In this document: positions 3 through 11,589 of the stretch, piece after piece
Numbering within the stretch: the first letter of the stretch is position 1
Layout: every line of letters begins with the position of its first letter
Source of the DNA: Oscillospiraceae bacterium
GTDB lineage: Bacteria > Bacillota_A > Clostridia > Oscillospirales > Oscillospiraceae
Direction of reading: 5' to 3'
Length of the DNA stretch: 12,396 nt
NCBI GenBank assembly: GCA_017455225.1
Contig: JAFTBL010000204.1
Span: 1-12,396, forward strand
Position numbers and translations under genes: made by a program
The notes under the pieces: model-generated
What the model was told of the DNA's origin: nothing
The model's database searches: none
What the model saw: only the letters and a program-made list of their open reading frames with translations

Positions 3-1121
3 TTAGTTGTTCCAGATGGGGTTGCCGTAGGAGATGACCCGCCCGTCGTTGGGGTCGCCGATCTCCACCCGGTAGAACATGGCACTCTCATCCGCATCCA
101 GCGCGATGGGCGCGTTGTCCCGGTTGGAGATCAGCTGGCTGTACACGATCCCCTGATCGGTGTACACGTCCAGCCGGTACTGACGCGCATCCGCGCTCAC
201 GTACTGGTGGAACTTGCCCACCTCGATCACGAGGCGTTGACCGGCAAAGTCCGTGGTACCGCCCATAGGCGTGCTGCCCACGCACATCTTGATGCCCACG
301 GAGCCGGCAGAAAAGTTGCCCCGCGCCAGCTCGCCTGTGATGAGCTCCGCCTTGTTGGTGCTGTCGGTATCTGCCTGCGCGTACACGCTGGTCAATGCCT
401 TTTCCGCCACCTGCGGGTTGCCGTCATCGTTCAGCGGCCCGTGGATATCACTGCCGGAGGTGGCCCAGACCTTGTGGCCCGACGCCAGCAGCTCCTTCCA
501 GAGCTCATAGTTCCGCCGCGTGTATGTGCGGCAGAGCGCATCTCCGTCGCCGCCGTCGGAACGGGTGGTCAGCGAACCGTAGACCACCTCAAGGGCCGTG
601 CCGTCGGCCAGGAAGTAATCCTCCGCCGTGCCGGAATATTTATACGCCGTGGGATGGGCGAACACGAACAGGCCGCCCTGGGCCTTCACCGCCTGCGCCA
701 GCTCCGCAAAACGGGCCTTGGTAAAGTTGGGGTACGTGTAGGCGCCGTAGGAGGGCGTGCAGTTGCCGGTGTAAGCGGCATTGTAACCGAACTCGGAAAA
801 CCCGTTCAGCACGTTCTCCAGCGAGGCCTTGTCCGGCATGATCATCAGATAGTGCGCCTTGCCCAGCGTCGCGCTGTAGGTGGGGCTGGTCAAACCGCTG
901 ATGTAGGTGCCGGGCTCCGTGCCGTAGAGGAACAGATCCTTATCCCACGCGCTGTTCTCAATGTGGTTGGTCTGCTTGTGATCCAGACTGCCCACAAAGT
1001 CCAGCGCATGCTCGGACATCTGCGTTTTCCACGTGTTCAGAGCGGCGGTCTCGTTGAGCTTGCCGTCGTTGTCGGCGTGGGCGTGGATATCGCCCTGATA
1101 AAGCGTCTTGCCGGCGTACAC
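3..1121 (-). CDS. PHP-domain metallohydrolase, CehA/McbA-like (separated by a TGA from the upstream GLUG protein)
   Basis: Predicted metal-dependent hydrolase of the PHP (polymerase and histidinol phosphatase) superfamily. Numbering from the GTG at 1119-1121, all metal-ligand motifs are visible: GDIHAHAD (D11, H13, H15), SLDH (D47, H48), AHYLMI (H90), LEVVYG (E178), FVFAHP (H156) and SGSDIHG (D225, H227). The C-terminus ends in a beta-rich segment with FYRVEIGD and GNPIWNN, which I associate with CehA/McbA-type secreted PHP proteins; the reaction (phosphoester or other ester/carbamate hydrolysis) is not readable. The 372-aa length covers a full domain and the TAA stop lies inside the window. 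The start is doubtful: GTG has no ribosome binding site. Coding-like sequence (RAPDVTATQADIDQLAA) continues upstream in the same frame to the TGA that ends the GLUG protein. Alone, this ORF has no signal peptide; as part of the upstream protein it would be secreted. It may be the broken-off C-terminal domain of a 1228-aa protein. Domain identity is fairly certain, functional status is not. Confidence 0.8.
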   Translation of the reverse strand: MYAGKTLYQGDIHAHADNDGKLNETAALNTWKTQMSEHALDFVGSLDHKQTNHIENSAWDKDLFLYGTEPGTYISGLTSPTYSATLGKAHYLMIMPDKASLENVLNGFSEFGYNAAYTGNCTPSYGAYTYPNFTKARFAELAQAVKAQGGLFVFAHPTAYKYSGTAEDYFLADGTALEVVYGSLTTRSDGGDGDALCRTYTRRNYELWKELLASGHKVWATSGSDIHGPLNDDGNPQVAEKALTSVYAQADTDSTNKAELITGELARGNFSAGSVGIKMCVGSTPMGGTTDFAGQRLVIEVGKFHQYVSADARQYRLDVYTDQGIVYSQLISNRDNAPIALDADESAMFYRVEIGDPNDGRVISYGNPIWNN

Positions 1122-1175
1122 GGCGGCAAGCTGATCGATGTCAGCCTGCGTCGCCGTAACGTCGGGAGCCCTTCA
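1122..1175 (-). other. In-frame TGA junction joining the GLUG protein to the PHP domain
   Basis: The TGA at 1173-1175 ends the 838-aa GLUG protein (last residues VNGGMD). The next 17 codons in the same frame read RAPDVTATQADIDQLAA and run directly into VYAGKTLYQGDIHAHAD of the PHP domain. There is no ATG, GTG or TTG before the GTG at 1121 and no Shine-Dalgarno sequence 5-10 bases ahead of it. The only purine run (GAAGGG, overlapping the stop) has no start codon at a useful distance. The stretch therefore looks like an interdomain linker rather than an intergenic spacer. Confidence 0.7.
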
Positions 1176-3689
1176 ATCCATGCCGCCATTGACAAGCTTC
1201 AGAGCCGGGAACTGGCCGTCCCGGGTGATCCAGCTGTTCGTCCAATCCAGCAAAGGCATGTTGGTCTGGGCGGCGCTGCCCTGAATGTCGGCGGCGGCCA
1301 CCAGCGTGATGGTCACGCTGCCCATGTGGTTGTTCCCCTCGATGCCGGTGCAGCTTTCGTTGGTACCGTAGCTGTTGCTGACGGTGCCGGAGGCGGTGCT
1401 GCTCAAATAGCCCAGCACGCGGCCGAAGCCGTCGGTGTGGCTGCCGGACATGACAATGGCGCCGGTGTTCAGGCAGCCGTCAATGGCCATTGTGGTGCCT
1501 TCCTGGGTGACATAGCCCACGATGCCGGCCACGCGGGGACAATTGTTTTCCGCAGTGTACTGCTCCACGTTGATGGTACCGCTGTTGTAGCAGTTGCGCA
1601 CGGCATTGGCGCCGCCGTAAGCAATGGCGATGATGCCGCCGGTACCCTGGGTGGTGGGGCTGGTGGTGGTGACGGTGCCGTCAAACCAGCAGTTCTCCAC
1701 GGTCACGCCGGTGGCAAAGCCCACCAGACCGCCTACCCAGCCCTTGGCAGTGACGCTGGCATTGGAGTAGACGTTGCGCAAAACACCGTTGCCGTTGCCG
1801 ATAATGCTGCCGAGACGGTTGTTGGAGGAGACAAAATAACTGTTCTCCAGACGGAAATTCTCCACCACGGCGGTGGCCGACGTGACACCGAAGAAGCCGG
1901 CGTTGGCGCCGCTGGCGCTCTGATACACGCCGCGGACGGTATGTCCCTGTCCGTCAAACGTACCGGCAAAGGGATAGCTGTCCGTTCCGATCTTCGCGTT
2001 CCACTTGGTGGCAGGCGCGGTGGCGCCGGCCGTCCAGCCCTCGTTCAGGTCGATGTCCGCGCCCAGCTTGATGGTCCAGCCGGCGAAGGTGTTGCTGTTG
2101 GAGGTCTGAGCAAATTTGATCAGTTCAGCGCCGGTGGTGATGGTATAGGATGCGGCGCCATCCTCAGAGAAGTACGCCGGGATGGGCACGCTACCGTCTT
2201 TGATGGCCCAATAGTTGTCGAAAACCAGCCACTGGTTCAACGCCAGACCATTCATACCATACAGCTCCGAGGGTTTCTTGCTGCTGTAATAGTCGGACGC
2301 TGTCTTTGTTATGCTGCTGCCGCTGGCTTCGCTTCCCACGTGGTTTTTCGTGCTGTACTCGTTGGCGCAGATGCAGTTCTCAAGGGCCAGCGCAACATTG
2401 TTGCGTCCGACGAACAGACCTCTATCGTTGGAGGCCGAGAATTTGCCCATGCTGGCGCAATCACGGATCGTGGCGCTGGCGCCGCTGAACGTAAAGCCAA
2501 CGAAGGTGCTGGAATAATTACCGCCGCCGGCTTCCACATAGCCGCTGAACAAGCTGTGCTCGATCACCAGTACCGCCGAAGCTGCATCCATGTCGCCGAT
2601 GAAGCCGCCCACGTAAGATCTGCTGGGGGCATTCACCGTGCCGTCAAACCAGCACTCGCTGATGGTGGCGCTGCCATCCAGGATCCCGAAGAAGCCACCG
2701 TAAACATTCGCCGCTGCTGCATTCACATAAGCGTTGGAGTAAATCTTTTCTGCTGTGCCGGCAAAGGAGCCGGCAATACCGCCCAGCCGTCCCGCGTTGC
2801 TGGTCAAGTAGCTGTTCTCCAACCGGAAATCCTTCAACGTAGCGGTAGCGGCTGTCTTGGCAAAGAGACCTGCGAACTGCGCCGTTGCGTTGACGTACAC
2901 GCCGCTGATCGTGTGTCCCTGACCGTCAAATGTGCCGGCAAAGGGTATGCTGGTACTGCCGATGGGCGTCCACGTCTGGGTGGGAGCGGTAGCGCTGGCC
3001 GTCCAGCCCTCGTTCAGGTCGATATCCTTCGTCAGCTTGACCTTCCAGTTTGCAAAGTTTCTGCTCTGGGAGGCCGTGGCAAAGGCGGTCAGATCCGCCG
3101 CGCTGGAGATCATGTAGTTGTTGAAGCTCTCGCACTCGTTGATTTTGATGGTGCGTTCTTCACCGCGCACCTCCGTGCCGTCCATGGTGACCCAGAACGG
3201 GATGAAGGACAGCGCCGTGCCGAACTTCGCGCTGCCGACGGTGAAGTTGTAGGCGCAGAAGTACTGAGACTCCGCGCTGAACACGCTGGGCTCATACTCC
3301 AGATTGGCCAGCCCGTCCGTGCCGACGATCCGGCGCGCCACCTTGGTGGTGGCGTATTCCTTCTCCGCTCCGCCGTCCACCGACACGAAGAAGCCCACCT
3401 TCTGATAGCGGGTGCTGTCCACCGTGGTGACCACGCGGATGCGCGTGCTGTCGTCGTCCTCGTTGGCAAGGTAGGTGAGCTGACACTTCACCTTCAGCAC
3501 GTCCTCGTCCACGAATTTCGGATAGGACGTTTCCCCATTCGACGGCGTGGTATACGTATCGTCCGTATAGTAGCCGGCGAAGACCTTGCCCTCTTCCGTG
3601 GGCGCATCCGCCCATGCCGCAGGTACGCCCACCATGACCAGCGAAAGGGTCATGATCAGCACCAGTGCAGCGCTCATAATCTTTTTCAT
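1173..3689 (-). CDS. Secreted protein with two GLUG-type repeat units
   Basis: An 838-aa exported protein. Residues 1-27 form a typical signal peptide (MKK, hydrophobic core, AWA then DA as probable cleavage site). Residues ~29-187 are a beta-rich domain I do not recognise. Residues ~191-507 and ~515-832 are two copies of the large GLUG-type repeat also found in the giant upstream gene. Each copy carries FAGTFDGQGHT (D255 and D579, 324 residues apart), an IYSNA or VYSNA motif, CWFDG, several GG(L/F/I)xG turns, and a closing W-x-x-x-D-G-x-x-P-A segment. GLUG repeats occur in bacterial surface proteins and probably form a beta-solenoid; a binding or adhesion role is inferred. There is no sortase motif or C-terminal membrane segment. 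The start is supported by AAGGAG at 3698-3703, 8 bases before the ATG. The frame continues past the TGA into a PHP hydrolase domain, so this may be the N-terminal two thirds of a fusion. Confidence 0.88.
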   Translation of the reverse strand: MKKIMSAALVLIMTLSLVMVGVPAAWADAPTEEGKVFAGYYTDDTYTTPSNGETSYPKFVDEDVLKVKCQLTYLANEDDDSTRIRVVTTVDSTRYQKVGFFVSVDGGAEKEYATTKVARRIVGTDGLANLEYEPSVFSAESQYFCAYNFTVGSAKFGTALSFIPFWVTMDGTEVRGEERTIKINECESFNNYMISSAADLTAFATASQSRNFANWKVKLTKDIDLNEGWTASATAPTQTWTPIGSTSIPFAGTFDGQGHTISGVYVNATAQFAGLFAKTAATATLKDFRLENSYLTSNAGRLGGIAGSFAGTAEKIYSNAYVNAAAANVYGGFFGILDGSATISECWFDGTVNAPSRSYVGGFIGDMDAASAVLVIEHSLFSGYVEAGGGNYSSTFVGFTFSGASATIRDCASMGKFSASNDRGLFVGRNNVALALENCICANEYSTKNHVGSEASGSSITKTASDYYSSKKPSELYGMNGLALNQWLVFDNYWAIKDGSVPIPAYFSEDGAASYTITTGAELIKFAQTSNSNTFAGWTIKLGADIDLNEGWTAGATAPATKWNAKIGTDSYPFAGTFDGQGHTVRGVYQSASGANAGFFGVTSATAVVENFRLENSYFVSSNNRLGSIIGNGNGVLRNVYSNASVTAKGWVGGLVGFATGVTVENCWFDGTVTTTSPTTQGTGGIIAIAYGGANAVRNCYNSGTINVEQYTAENNCPRVAGIVGYVTQEGTTMAIDGCLNTGAIVMSGSHTDGFGRVLGYLSSTASGTVSNSYGTNESCTGIEGNNHMGSVTITLVAAADIQGSAAQTNMPLLDWTNSWITRDGQFPALKLVNGGMD
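1194..3119 (-). repeat. Two tandem GLUG-type protein repeat units
   Basis: Unit 1 spans roughly 2169-3119 and unit 2 roughly 1194-2147. The FDGQGH signature codons fall at 2925 and 1953, a period of 972 bases (324 codons). Both units open with a Y/M-[IT]-x-S/T-A-x-[ED]-L-x-x-F-A pattern, then a KLxxDIDLNEGWTA segment, the FDGQGHT signature, a YSNA motif and CWFDG. They resemble units E and F of the giant gene more than its units A and B, suggesting a shared origin within this operon. Confidence 0.8.
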
Positions 3690-3697
3690 CTGCTATG

Positions 3698-3703
3698 CTC
3701 CTT
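3698..3703 (-). promoter_or_regulatory. Ribosome binding site of the secreted GLUG protein
   Basis: AAGGAG on the minus strand, 8 bases upstream of the ATG at 3687-3689. It fixes the start ahead of a good signal peptide. The 48-base gap from the preceding 39-codon gene contains no terminator-like hairpin, so the two are probably cotranscribed. Confidence 0.75.
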
Positions 3704-3737
3704 CCGTTCTTAAAATTGGCTTTTCATTGGACGCGCT

Positions 3738-3857
3738 TTACAGCTCGCCACCTTCGTTGCCGGGATCCTCGTCCACGCCTGTCAGACTGGTGCAGATGAT
3801 ATCGCTCCATTTCAGCTCATCCACCTCCAGCACAGGGGAACTGTAACGCCGTTTCAT
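3738..3857 (-). CDS. Small 39-residue protein of unknown function
   Basis: A short open frame from ATG (3855-3857) to TAA (3738-3740), encoding 39 residues. The N-terminus is basic (MKRRYSSP), the middle reads VLEVDELKWSDIICTSL, and the tail is acidic and glycine-rich (TGVDEDPGNEGGEL). It has one of the best ribosome binding sites in the window, AAGGAGG at 3865-3871, 7 bases before the ATG. It lies on the same strand between two large exported-protein genes, 102 bases after the giant gene and 48 bases before the signal peptide gene. There is no signal peptide or membrane segment and only one cysteine. The pattern P-x-x-E-V-x-x-[LF]-x-x-x-D-I-[IV]-x-T-S resembles short unannotated proteins I have seen in Clostridia; that is memory, not a search. 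A peptide precursor or small regulator is possible, but no modification enzyme is visible here. It is real as an ORF with an RBS; its function is unknown. Confidence 0.7.
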   Translation of the reverse strand: MKRRYSSPVLEVDELKWSDIICTSLTGVDEDPGNEGGEL

Positions 3858-3864
3858 GTTCTCT

Positions 3865-3871
3865 CCTCCTT
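3865..3871 (-). promoter_or_regulatory. Strong ribosome binding site of the 39-codon gene
   Basis: AAGGAGG followed by AGAGAAC and ATG, a 7-base spacing. This near-perfect site is the main reason for accepting the very short gene behind it. Confidence 0.75.
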
Positions 3872-3919
3872 TCTCGTGCTGCTTTTAAAAGTCTCCTTTG
3901 GTTGATGGTATATCTGCCC

Positions 3920-3952
3920 GTGTCTGCCGCGCCGCGACAGCGCGGCAGACAC
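3920..3952 (-). other. Perfect 13-bp inverted repeat in the intercistronic gap
   Basis: GTGTCTGCCGCGC, a 7-base loop (tgtcgcg on the minus strand), then GCGCGGCAGACAC. It starts 7 bases after the TAA of the giant gene. The stem is long and GC-rich, so a stable RNA hairpin is expected. What follows in the transcript is GGGCAGATATACC, with no T run, so it is not a standard intrinsic terminator. It could attenuate transcription, protect the upstream message from 3' decay, or mark a processing site. The rest of the 3858-3959 gap holds only the downstream ribosome binding site; I see no convincing -35/-10 promoter. Confidence 0.6.
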
Positions 3953-3959
3953 GCAACAT

Positions 3960-6900
3960 TTACGGTGTAGTCACCAAGCTTTTCAGCGCAGGCACGGCAC
4001 CGTCGCGGGTAACCCAATGCTCTTCAAAGTCCAGCCAGCTTGCCAGCCACGCGCCGTCGTCGCCCTTGAGCTGCTCCCGCGTCCTGGAGCTGACGTTGAC
4101 GGCGTTGCCGGCGTAGGCGCCGCTGTTGCCGTACCACTTGGCGCTGCCCACGCCCACGGAGTTGTTGGCGGTGAGCACGGAGCTGGCCGTCTGCCGGCCG
4201 CCGATGAGTTCGCCCTTCTGACCGGCGGTGATGACGCCGATGGCAAGGGTGTCGTCCATGGTGATGTGACTGTCTGCGGCGAAAGCAAAGCCGCAGATGC
4301 CGCCCACCTGCTGGCCGGCGGTGATGACGCCGCTGAACAGGCAGTGCTGTACCGTCACGTTTGCAGCAGTATCCAGCGCGCCGATGAGACCGCCCACGTA
4401 GGAGTTGCCCGCGGCGCTGACCGTGCCGTCAAACCAACATTCGCTCAACGCGGCGGCGGCACCCTCCACGTTGCCGAACAGACCGCCGTAGCGGCTGTTG
4501 CCGGAGGTGGTCTTGTGAACGATGGCGCTGGAATAGATCCGCTCCGCCGTGCCGGCAAAGGCACCGGCTATGCTGCCCTGATAGGGCGCCTCGGTGAGGA
4601 AGCAGCTGTTCTCCAGACGGAAGTTCTTCAAAACCGCCGTTTCCGCCGTCTTGACAAAGAGCCCCGTCTTCTGCGTGCTGCCTGCGCTGACATATACGCC
4701 GCGGATGGTGTGATCCTGCCCGTCAAACGTGCCGGCAAAGGGCACGGAGGTGGAGGCGATCATCTCCCACACCAGATCCGGCGCCGCCTCGGCGGAGGCG
4801 TCCCAGCCGGGGTTCAGGTCAATATCCGCCGAGAGCGTCACGGTGCTGCCGGCAAAGCTCATGCTCTTGGAGAGCCGGGCAAAGGCGAGGAGATCCTCCG
4901 CGTCGGCAACGGTATATACGCGCTTGCCGTCCTCATCCTCGGTATAGCTGTTGTGGAAACCGTCGGTCATGCTCTGCAGGGCAGGAACCGCGTCCGGGCG
5001 CGTAACCCAATAGTTGTTGAAATCCAGCCACGCAGCCAGGAACGCACCGCCGTCTCCCTTGAGCTGCTCCAGCGTCCGGGAGCTGACGTTGTCGGCGGCG
5101 TTCTGTACGTAGGCGCCGCTGCTGCCGTACCACTTGGCACTGCCAACGCTCACGGAGTTGTTGGCGGTAAGCACGCACTCGGCGCTCTGCCGGCCACCCA
5201 CAAGACCGCCCCACTGGGCGGCGTTGATGACGCCGGCGGCAAGCGTATCCTCAAAGGTGATGCCCGCTGCGCTGATGGTGTTGCCGCAGATGCCGCCCAC
5301 GCCCTTTTCTGCCGTGATGCTGCCGCTGAACAGGCTGTGAGACACGGTGACCGCGTCATACGCACCGCCGATCAGTCCGCCGACCCACTGCTTTCCGGCG
5401 GCGTCGATCACACCGTCAAACCAGCACTCGCTGACAGTCGCGTCGCCGTACCTCGTTTCGCCGAACAGGCCGCCGAAGTAAGCCGCTCCGCCGGTGACTG
5501 CCAGGGTGGCGTTGCTGTAAATCTTCTCCGCCGTGCCGGCAAAGTGTGCCGCGATGGTACCGGCATAGCCGGCGGATGTGGTGACATAGCTGTTGGTAAG
5601 GCGGAAGTCCTTCAACACAGCCGTAGACGCCACCTGCGTGAAGAGTCCGGCGTTGCCCGCCGCGCTCCGATATACGCCGGAGATGGTGTGGCCCTGGCCG
5701 TCAAACGTGCCGGCAAAGGGTACGCTTGTGCTTCCGATGGGCGTAGACCACTGGTTGGCGGGCGCGTCGGCGCCGGCCATCCAGCCCGGGTTCAGGTCGA
5801 CGTCTGCCGCCAGCTTTACAATGCTGTCTGCAAAGGTGTTGTTTTGAGACAGCAAAGCAAATGCCTTCAGATCATCCGCGTTATTCACGGTGTGGACCCG
5901 CTTGCCGTTCTCGTCCTTTTCGGCGCTGTTTTGGAAATCCTCCATGGCCTGCTGCAGCGCCGAGAGCTTGCCGGACAAGCTGCGCAGCGCAGGAACGTCC
6001 TGATCCCGCACCACCCAGTGGTTGTCAAAGTCCAGCCAGGTCGCCAGGAACAATCCATCCTCGCCCTTGAGCCGGTCGCGGGTGCGGGAGTTGATCTTGG
6101 CGGCGTCTGTAATTTCCTTTGCTACTGCGGTGCCTGCCAGATCCTGCGTGCCCACGCCTGCGCAATGGCGGATAGTGATGGTGGGGGCGGCGCTGTATCT
6201 GCCGCCTACCAGCGTGCCCACGGTGGCGCCCGTCGTTTCCAGCGTGCCGATACTCAACGAATCCACGATGGTGATGCCGCCATCTACCAGGTAGCCGCAA
6301 AGTCCTCCCAAGTGGTCCTTGGCCGTCGCCGTGCCGCTGAAGAGGCAATGGCTCACAGTGACGGCGCCGGCCTTATTGTCCAGGCTGCCGATCAAACCGC
6401 CTATGTAGCGGTTATCCGCGGCGTTGACCGCGCCGTCAAACCAGCACTCGGTCAGAGAAGCCTCGCCTGTCACGGCGCCGGCCAGTCCGCCGAAGCGGCT
6501 GCGTTCCTTCCCTGCGGCCTGCACGGTGGCGTTGCTGTAAACGTGCTCCATCGTACCGGTGAAAATGCCGGCCACGGCGCCGCAGTAAGGCCCGTTCTTG
6601 GCAAAGAAGCTGTTTTCTATGCGCAGATCCTTCACTGTCGAGCCTGCTGCCGTCTGGGCAAACAGCCCGGTAGGATCGTCGCTCTTGATGTTTTGGTAAA
6701 GGCCGCTGATGGTATGCCCCTGTCCGTCAAACGTACCGGCAAAGGGTTTGGCGGCGCTGCCCACGCTCATCCACGCATTGCCGGGAGCTGTTTCATCCCA
6801 ATCTGCGGCGCTGCCCGGATTCAGCGTGACGTCCGACGCCAGCTTCACCGTACAGCCGGCGTAGTCCGTCAGTCTGGACAGCAGAGCAAATGCAGTGAGA

Positions 6901-10186: not shown

Positions 10187-10193
10187 CCTCCTT
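10187..10193 (-). promoter_or_regulatory. Ribosome binding site that decides the giant gene's start
   Basis: AAGGAGG overlaps the TAA stop (10192-10194) of the upstream hydrolase gene. Spacing is 8 bases to the ATG at 10178 and only 2 bases to the ATG at 10184, so MKKKTV is favoured over MTMKKK. The stop/RBS overlap suggests translational coupling. Confidence 0.75.
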
Positions 10194-11589
10194 ATCGCGG
10201 CGGCTTGGCTACGTTGTAGCTCCACTCTCGCATCGGCAGGGTCGTGGCCGAGCCCACCGTATAGGGAAACTGCATCACCACAGTTCCCTCGCCATAGGTG
10301 TAGGATTCCTGTGCCACCTCGTTCAAGTGGAGAAGCTGCACCGTGTGGGTGCCGTAGCCCGTGTCGCCGCCCAGCAGCTTATGATAGTTGGGGTAAAGCA
10401 CCGTATCCACCCGTTTGAGATAATCGGTAAACTGATCGAACACGTCGTAGCCGTGATGTGACGGGAAATATACGTCCAGATCCAGATACTCGCTGCCGTA
10501 GGCACGCATGATGAACTGCTGTGCGGCAAAGGTGCCGTCTGCGGGAAACAGGATCGTCTGCCCCTCCACGTAGTACATCAGCCACGTGCTGGTGGCGTTT
10601 TCTCCCGTCCACTCCTCGTAGGGCATTGCCTCCGAGGTAAACACCGCCTCCACCGTGATGTCGTTGAAATAGTAGCGGTCGCCCAGTACGATCTCGTGGA
10701 GCACGGGCGCCGCGCCGTCCGATCGCTTGAGCATAGGCGGCAGGCCCCTGACGTAGTTGCTCAGCTTTTCACCGCCGTAGTAGGTCTCCGCCTCCGCGCT
10801 GACGCAGTTATAATACACGTTTTCCACATAGACCCTGTCCATCTGCTCCTTGTTCTCCAAAAACGCCTTGAAAACGCCCATGTGGTCGATATGGGGATGG
10901 GACATGAACCATGCCTCGATCACCGGCTTCTCCCCTTCCGGCGTCAGCTTTTCCAGATCGTCCAGCAGATAGGGCAGCTCGTTCTCCGTGCCGCCGTCGT
11001 TGATGATAAAATGGCCGTTTTTGAGCTGGAAGAAAAAGCTGGCGCCGGTGGTGTAGAGCTCGGGAAGATACAGCGTCGTTTTGGCGCCCGGCTTGTTGCC
11101 TGCCAGATAGTCCTCGTTGTATGCAAGGTGCTCCGACCACGCGCCCTTTTCACAGGCGGAGATCATGGTGCGGTTCAAGCGGGTGAAATACGTCACGGAA
11201 AGGCGCAGGCTGTCCTTCTGGAAATACGTCTTATAGACGTATCCGCCCAGACCGTGCTCGCCGTTGTCCGTATATCGGGTAAAGCCGCTGTTCTCCAGCA
11301 CCTTCAAGTATGCGTTGTATTCATCCTGCGTGGTATCATAGACGTTGATGCTGTATGTATCGGCACCGTCGTCCACCGCGTTTTCATAGCGGACGGATGC
11401 GCCGGTAAGCGCCGGCACATTGGCAAACAGATCATATTGCGAATACGCTCCCAGCGTGGAAGCATCTCCGGAAACGATCGTTTTTTTCTCCGGCAGAGCC
11501 TGCGCCGCAGCGCGCCCGCCGAAAAAGCAGGCGGCCGCCAGCGCCAGTGCAGCGGTGCCCAGCAATACGTGCTTTGCAGATTTCTTCAT
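10192..11589 (-). CDS. Exported metallo-beta-lactamase-fold hydrolase
   Basis: A 465-aa protein with MBL-fold hydrolase motifs. The N-terminus (MKKSAKHVLL, an alanine-rich core, GRAAAQA) is a signal peptide or anchor; AAAC at 18-21 is a weak lipobox. Residues ~50-160 form a separate alpha/beta-looking domain (TYSINVYDTTQDEYNAYLK) that I have seen ahead of MBL domains in Firmicutes but cannot name. The MBL domain starts around residue 185: NDGG at 197-200, the metal motif SHPHIDHMG (H231, H233, D235, H236), FPADG (D351) and FPSHHGYD (H378/H379). The HHG ending and spacing resemble ComEC-type MBL domains. The usual third-histidine position is not evident, as VEAVFTSEA holds none. The substrate is unknown; outside the cell it could cleave phosphoesters or lactone/ester bonds. 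The start has GGGAGG at 11597-11602, 7 bases away. The gene lies 19 bases after the permease and 13 bases before the giant gene, consistent with one operon. Confidence 0.85.
   Translation of the reverse strand: MKKSAKHVLLGTAALALAAACFFGGRAAAQALPEKKTIVSGDASTLGAYSQYDLFANVPALTGASVRYENAVDDGADTYSINVYDTTQDEYNAYLKVLENSGFTRYTDNGEHGLGGYVYKTYFQKDSLRLSVTYFTRLNRTMISACEKGAWSEHLAYNEDYLAGNKPGAKTTLYLPELYTTGASFFFQLKNGHFIINDGGTENELPYLLDDLEKLTPEGEKPVIEAWFMSHPHIDHMGVFKAFLENKEQMDRVYVENVYYNCVSAEAETYYGGEKLSNYVRGLPPMLKRSDGAAPVLHEIVLGDRYYFNDITVEAVFTSEAMPYEEWTGENATSTWLMYYVEGQTILFPADGTFAAQQFIMRAYGSEYLDLDVYFPSHHGYDVFDQFTDYLKRVDTVLYPNYHKLLGGDTGYGTHTVQLLHLNEVAQESYTYGEGTVVMQFPYTVGSATTLPMREWSYNVAKPPR

Follow-up and report, generated by a model that had tools for sequence, protein, structure and literature searches.

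A stop codon in the interdomain linker of a GLUG-like/PHP fusion gene from an Oscillospiraceae bacterium, probably a recent nonsense change

Introduction

The closest described counterparts of the gene considered here, which lies on the 12,396-nucleotide contig JAFTBL010000204.1 of an Oscillospiraceae bacterium (assembly GCA_017455225.1; hereafter the window, meaning this whole stretch of DNA), are eight predicted proteins that fuse GLUG-like repeats to a PHP-type hydrolase (P0080–P0087), the CehA/McbA family metallohydrolases (NCBIfam NF038032) and the two-domain PHP-like phosphoesterase BVU_3505 (PDB 3e38). The eight fusions may be exemplified by P0084, which derives from a metagenome-assembled genome of an Oscillospiraceae bacterium (IJT78_00570) and is annotated as a hypothetical protein. 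A literature search covering the starts of abstracts found no paper that joins a GLUG with a PHP domain, and the parts of papers on domain loss that were consulted cover no loss of the type described below.

The window gene resembles P0080–P0087 in its signal-like N terminus, its GLUG-like repeats, its linker region and its hydrolase, which is 53–62% identical to theirs. However, those proteins are 1552–1942 residues long and have no stop in the linker, whereas the window frame comprises 1228 codons and is interrupted by a TGA. Against NF038032 the hydrolase scores 73.4 bits (E = 2.1e-20) but does not reach the cut-off of 80, and on this comparison we regard it as a relative rather than a formal member of that family; furthermore, in the window it has lost its connection to a signal peptide. 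BVU_3505 is 16% identical, and its 343-residue chain has no room for a GLUG-like part.

We analysed this interrupted gene by comparison with its relatives in protein and DNA records, by a phylogeny of the hydrolase domain and by structure prediction. Our analyses show that the stop is confined to the window within a clade of fused proteins, that it falls in the linker and that the hydrolase sequence behind it is intact. We consider it probable that the TGA is a private and recent nonsense change, which would turn a secreted GLUG-like/PHP fusion into a GLUG-only surface protein.

Results

The gene lies on the minus strand, where an ATG at 3689, with the ribosome-binding site GGAAGGAG upstream, opens a reading frame of 838 codons that ends at a TGA at 1173..1175; the same frame then stays open for 389 codons as far as a TAA at 3–5, and codons 839 and 1229 are the only in-frame stops of the fused frame. 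A preliminary description of this stretch had one TGA dividing a GLUG protein from a PHP domain in the same frame, and was correct both in its coordinates and in that reading. The first half (1173..3689) encodes a protein of GLUG-like repeats whose N terminus is signal-like, as judged from the open reading frame, its ribosome-binding site, a crude signal test and a structure model; the GLUG motif PF07581 scores 8.4 bits on it, below the cut-off of 20.5. The second half (3..1172, including the TAA) encodes a putative metallohydrolase of PHP type, similar to CehA/McbA and with beta strands at its C terminus. At E 0.001, Pfam gave no match for either half, nor for the 2074- and 465-residue proteins encoded elsewhere in the window, and PF07581 did not match the 2074-residue protein at E 5.

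The hydrolase matched the PHP fold among solved structures, and a search of solved structures by sequence gave no match. Seven of its residues (H30, H32, H65, E86, H173, D242 and H244), which we take to be the metal ligands, are invariant in 47 rows of the alignment, as the preliminary description held in calling the ligands intact, and on the strength of the fold and these conserved His, Asp and Glu residues we consider the domain a PHP-type metallohydrolase whose catalysis is predicted. It matches the family at all 38 columns with 95% or higher conservation, and deviates at two of the 64 that do not vary among 16 kin. When the same test was applied to the eight nearest intact kin (64–69 columns), six deviated at no column, one at a single column and one at five. 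Thus the sequence of the domain shows no sign of decay, which implies that the change is recent, or that the product is still used, or that the stop is not real. Third-position guanine plus cytosine (GC) content is 0.855 in the hydrolase against 0.798 in the first half. Opposite the fusion gene, on the plus strand at 3–3713, one frame is open for 1236 codons, which is probably a by-product of high third-position GC.

To find uninterrupted relatives, we queried with the part of the frame that encodes the hydrolase, set length limits suited to a fusion and scored the 7984 candidates that had the most words in common with the query. This produced 34 proteins including the window's own 838-residue piece; the other 33, which are 1141–1970 residues long (P0100 being marked partial), have a long N-terminal part ahead of the hydrolase, and 31 of them have a signal-like N terminus by the crude test. 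Nineteen are GLUG-like, 18 through possession of an FxGxFDG pattern and P0089 through its place in the tree. The other 14, which begin with different N-terminal parts that lack this pattern, are found elsewhere in the tree (P0095, P0098, P0099, P0101, P0102 and P0104–P0112), and from this scatter it seems that fusion of the hydrolase to secreted proteins has happened repeatedly.

Database proteins hold no internal stops by construction, and the fused state was therefore checked in DNA, at six places in four genomes. There are four open fused frames, in two genomes (L001; L002/L010; L011/L026; and L003/L007, the start of which is lost at a contig end), and two stand-alone hydrolase genes (L004/L008 and L005/L009). 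The earlier proposal that the two open reading frames are halves of one gene is therefore supported both by the 33 fused proteins and by these open frames. Hydrolases encoded on their own are also common, but they are more distantly related, with 33–44% identity in most listed rows; some have no signal and some a lipoprotein-like one. Wider searches yielded no closer relative: of the 299 genomes in the family that includes genome G001, 2 carry the hydrolase, both already known, and of the 196 in the family that includes G003, 23 do, with no internal stop at any of the listed hydrolase places. The bacterium is uncultured, and the nearest named relatives are Lachnospiraceae and Oscillospiraceae records. 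A phage origin was considered and rejected, as there was no match in phage records and no relative among viral contigs.

A hydrolase-domain tree was estimated from the window and 106 of 110 relatives (P0064, P0068, P0077 and P0079, with fewer than 330 aligned residues, were left out). The window is sister to the eight GLUG-like fusions P0080–P0087, in a clade of nine rows with support values of 100/100. The next starred set in the tree has 17 rows, comprising 12 fusions, three longer proteins, P0071 and the window, and a larger one holds 19 fusions; both of these sets include the three longer proteins, which by eye resemble membrane-anchored ones, and the fragment-like row P0071. Within the nine-row clade a stop is seen in the window alone, which departs from one uninterrupted reading frame by its TGA at codon 839. 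Because the window is nested among fused kin, the fused state is the older one in the clade and the stop belongs to the window's own branch. By the preliminary description's own criterion, its reading would be refuted by homologues in which the hydrolase is always a separate gene, or in which the stop is conserved; the nearest clade shows neither, and the separate gene occurs in relatives further away. The terminal branch of the window hydrolase is 0.26 long, those of its kin ranging from 0 to 0.40. Opposite the TGA, the eight nearest kin have Gly (four), Glu (three) or Ser (one), by pairwise alignment in a poorly conserved linker, and 28 of the 33 fusion alignments cover the site. When five crude architecture labels, one of them the window's own, are mapped on the entire tree, 11 changes are required, so that proteins of this family do get joined and cut at this junction.

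The stop falls within an interdomain linker of 14 of the 1228 codons (1.1%; codons 834–847, at 1149..1190 on the minus strand) that has low predicted order. In the first structure model, the predicted local distance difference test (pLDDT) is 88 over residues 821–830, confidence extends to about residue 830 and values lie under 50 from 834, while the first hydrolase helix starts at residue 848 of the fused frame. Counting segments of three or more residues, pLDDT is under 50 in the 838-residue model only at 1–27 and 834–838. The truncated protein has the C terminus FPALKLVNGGMD, that is, FPALK plus seven residues. All four neighbouring genes that were looked at end alike, 4–9 residues past a VPxxK/R motif: these are the gene for the 2074-residue protein of the window, a 1338-residue frame in L001, a 979-residue frame in L002 and the gene before the small open reading frames in G002:C46. 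The L002 and G002:C46 genes are near copies of one another.

Immediately upstream of the fusion gene, at 3738..3857 on the minus strand, is a gene for a small protein of 39 residues with a strong ribosome-binding site. Small proteins of this kind are about 40 residues long and follow the pattern MKKxYxxP...DVICTSG, with an acidic tail. Such a gene stands directly before all four GLUG-like fusion genes whose upstream DNA was examined, the window included, and is thus conserved in GLUG-like kin; it was not found before L027, the one non-GLUG fusion with upstream DNA looked at. There are two copies in L001 (4144–4430, one without a clear start), two in L002 (2960–3245), one in L026 (245–379) and one in the window; L060 is a further locus, and two more copies precede a gene in G002:C46 that resembles P0087 at its start. 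Wider relatives turned up in 13 of 299 genomes (E 0.01), and a search with a broader alignment at E 0.001 found them in 10 of 150. Sixteen copies are present at the 11 loci inspected, several of them beside large secreted-looking genes, though L066 and L067 are not clearly so. Three members of this small protein family had no match in Pfam or NCBIfam at E 1.

The other three long genes of the window are uninterrupted, one of them, a sugar-type ABC permease, running off the contig end. Between the permease and the gene for the 2074-residue GLUG-like protein, at 10192–11589 on the minus strand, lies the gene for the 465-residue protein, whose N terminus is signal- or anchor-like and which matches metallo-beta-lactamases weakly (16 bits against a cut-off of 22.7).

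Discussion

The probable sequence of events is that a nonsense change arose in the interdomain linker and is now either fixed or polymorphic in the population. Translation would start at 3689, the signal peptide would export the protein and synthesis would end at the TGA, such that the product is a complete, and presumably stable, GLUG-only surface protein. The hydrolase half would no longer be made in useful amounts, because nothing near it resembles a start site. Several observations weigh against this account. The window hydrolase differs at 12 of the 153 columns that are invariant in its eight nearest kin; such differences are to be expected of a sister lineage, but they do not prove constraint since the split. 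With its nearest relative only 62% identical, the age of the stop is not measurable. The database gene call for the hydrolase piece (P0002, 372 residues) represents a protein cluster of three member sequences, and while the other members may be fragments or further copies of the split, the split may be older and maintained if those two also begin after a stop. Finally, a search with 231 residues across the junction recovered only the window's own piece and no other sequence of the population, and with a single contig and no second sequence across the junction an error in the contig is possible.

In that last case the TGA would be a sequencing or assembly error and the organism would have an ordinary, intact fusion, as the open frames of the nearest kin and the undecayed hydrolase would also lead one to expect. 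We consider this unlikely, while granting it appreciable weight. Some 1% of randomly placed errors would fall within the 14-codon linker, and the position is more in keeping with a tolerated change than with a random error, an argument of modest weight given that the finding was picked for its oddness; moreover, the three other long genes carry no such interruption, allowing for the truncation of the permease by the contig end. A functional split, in which the hydrolase is re-initiated at GTG 1121 (1119..1121, minus strand) or nearby as a separate cytoplasmic enzyme, is suggested by the stand-alone hydrolases of more distant relatives and by the gene call P0002, which begins at that codon, but it is improbable on several grounds. 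As the preliminary description rightly pointed out, GTG 1121 is the first possible start after the TGA, 17 codons on, and no ribosome-binding site is present in the bases before it (ATCGATCAGCTTGCCGCC), whereas one is present at all four other window starts that were checked (the fused gene, the small open reading frame, the 2074-residue gene and the 465-residue gene). The codon sits at the base of a predicted RNA hairpin, and starting there would delete all but the last residue of helix 9–18 of the hydrolase model, which is confidently predicted (pLDDT 98 over residues 11–20). The resulting protein would start 9 residues before the recognisable motif, a motif present in 70 of the 77 listed proteins other than P0002; 69 of these 70 start at least 19 residues before it, and P0078 starts 11 before. 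No promoter-like site was found in 900–4100, where 1.0 would be expected by chance.

The hairpin just mentioned (1120..1157, minus strand; loop CAUCGA) follows the TGA with a predicted energy of −24.4 kcal/mol (z −2.0 over 59 bases and −2.5 over 105), and beyond it the frame is intact and conserved, as would be expected if some ribosomes pass the stop and yield a minor secreted fusion. Such leaky termination, which the preliminary description had offered as one option, found no support and we rate it as improbable too: the stop is private, with no stop at the site in any of the four fused places read in DNA (two genomes), so there is no conserved readthrough; an intact frame is equally expected after a recent change; and the structure is not tied to the stop. 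In the intact L026 the corresponding segment, which follows no stop, has a stronger fold (z −4.3), on which ground the hairpin was rejected as a readthrough signal, while L001 gives z +1.0 and L002 and L003, identical in sequence here, z −1.15 each. It is more doubtful still that the linker stop has been kept so as to supply two secreted products, mostly a bare GLUG-like scaffold with a little scaffold plus hydrolase. Decoding of the TGA as an amino acid, whether selenocysteine or through a changed code, would likewise account for the open frame, but is scarcely credible and was rejected. TGA also ends the permease frame, which had earlier been held to make a global code change unlikely, and correctly so; none of the eight nearest kin has Trp opposite the TGA, nor Cys or selenocysteine, one of which would be expected there in homologues of a selenoprotein; and the loop of a bacterial selenocysteine insertion sequence requires GU, which CAUCGA does not contain. 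Neither SelB nor the selenocysteine transfer RNA (tRNA-Sec) was found over its curated cut-off in any of four related genomes, which may be incomplete and do not include the window's own, against 2 and 5 of 14 control genomes, respectively. All SelB matches in the four relatives fell under the cut-off, those to frames of 402 and 410 residues being presumably other elongation factors, and one tRNA-Sec match, in G003, was within 1 bit of it.

Hence, among the explanations offered by the preliminary description, a fresh mutation is the one we favour, and an error in the contig keeps some probability. The loss of an enzyme domain by such a stop is a known kind of event, and the gene family around the break may have had less attention than the break itself, in view of the absence of a GLUG and PHP paper from our search and of any family model that matches three members of the upstream small protein. 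If the nonsense change is real and recent, it would represent domain loss caught early, in which a surface protein is losing its enzyme at a point where both halves stay foldable.

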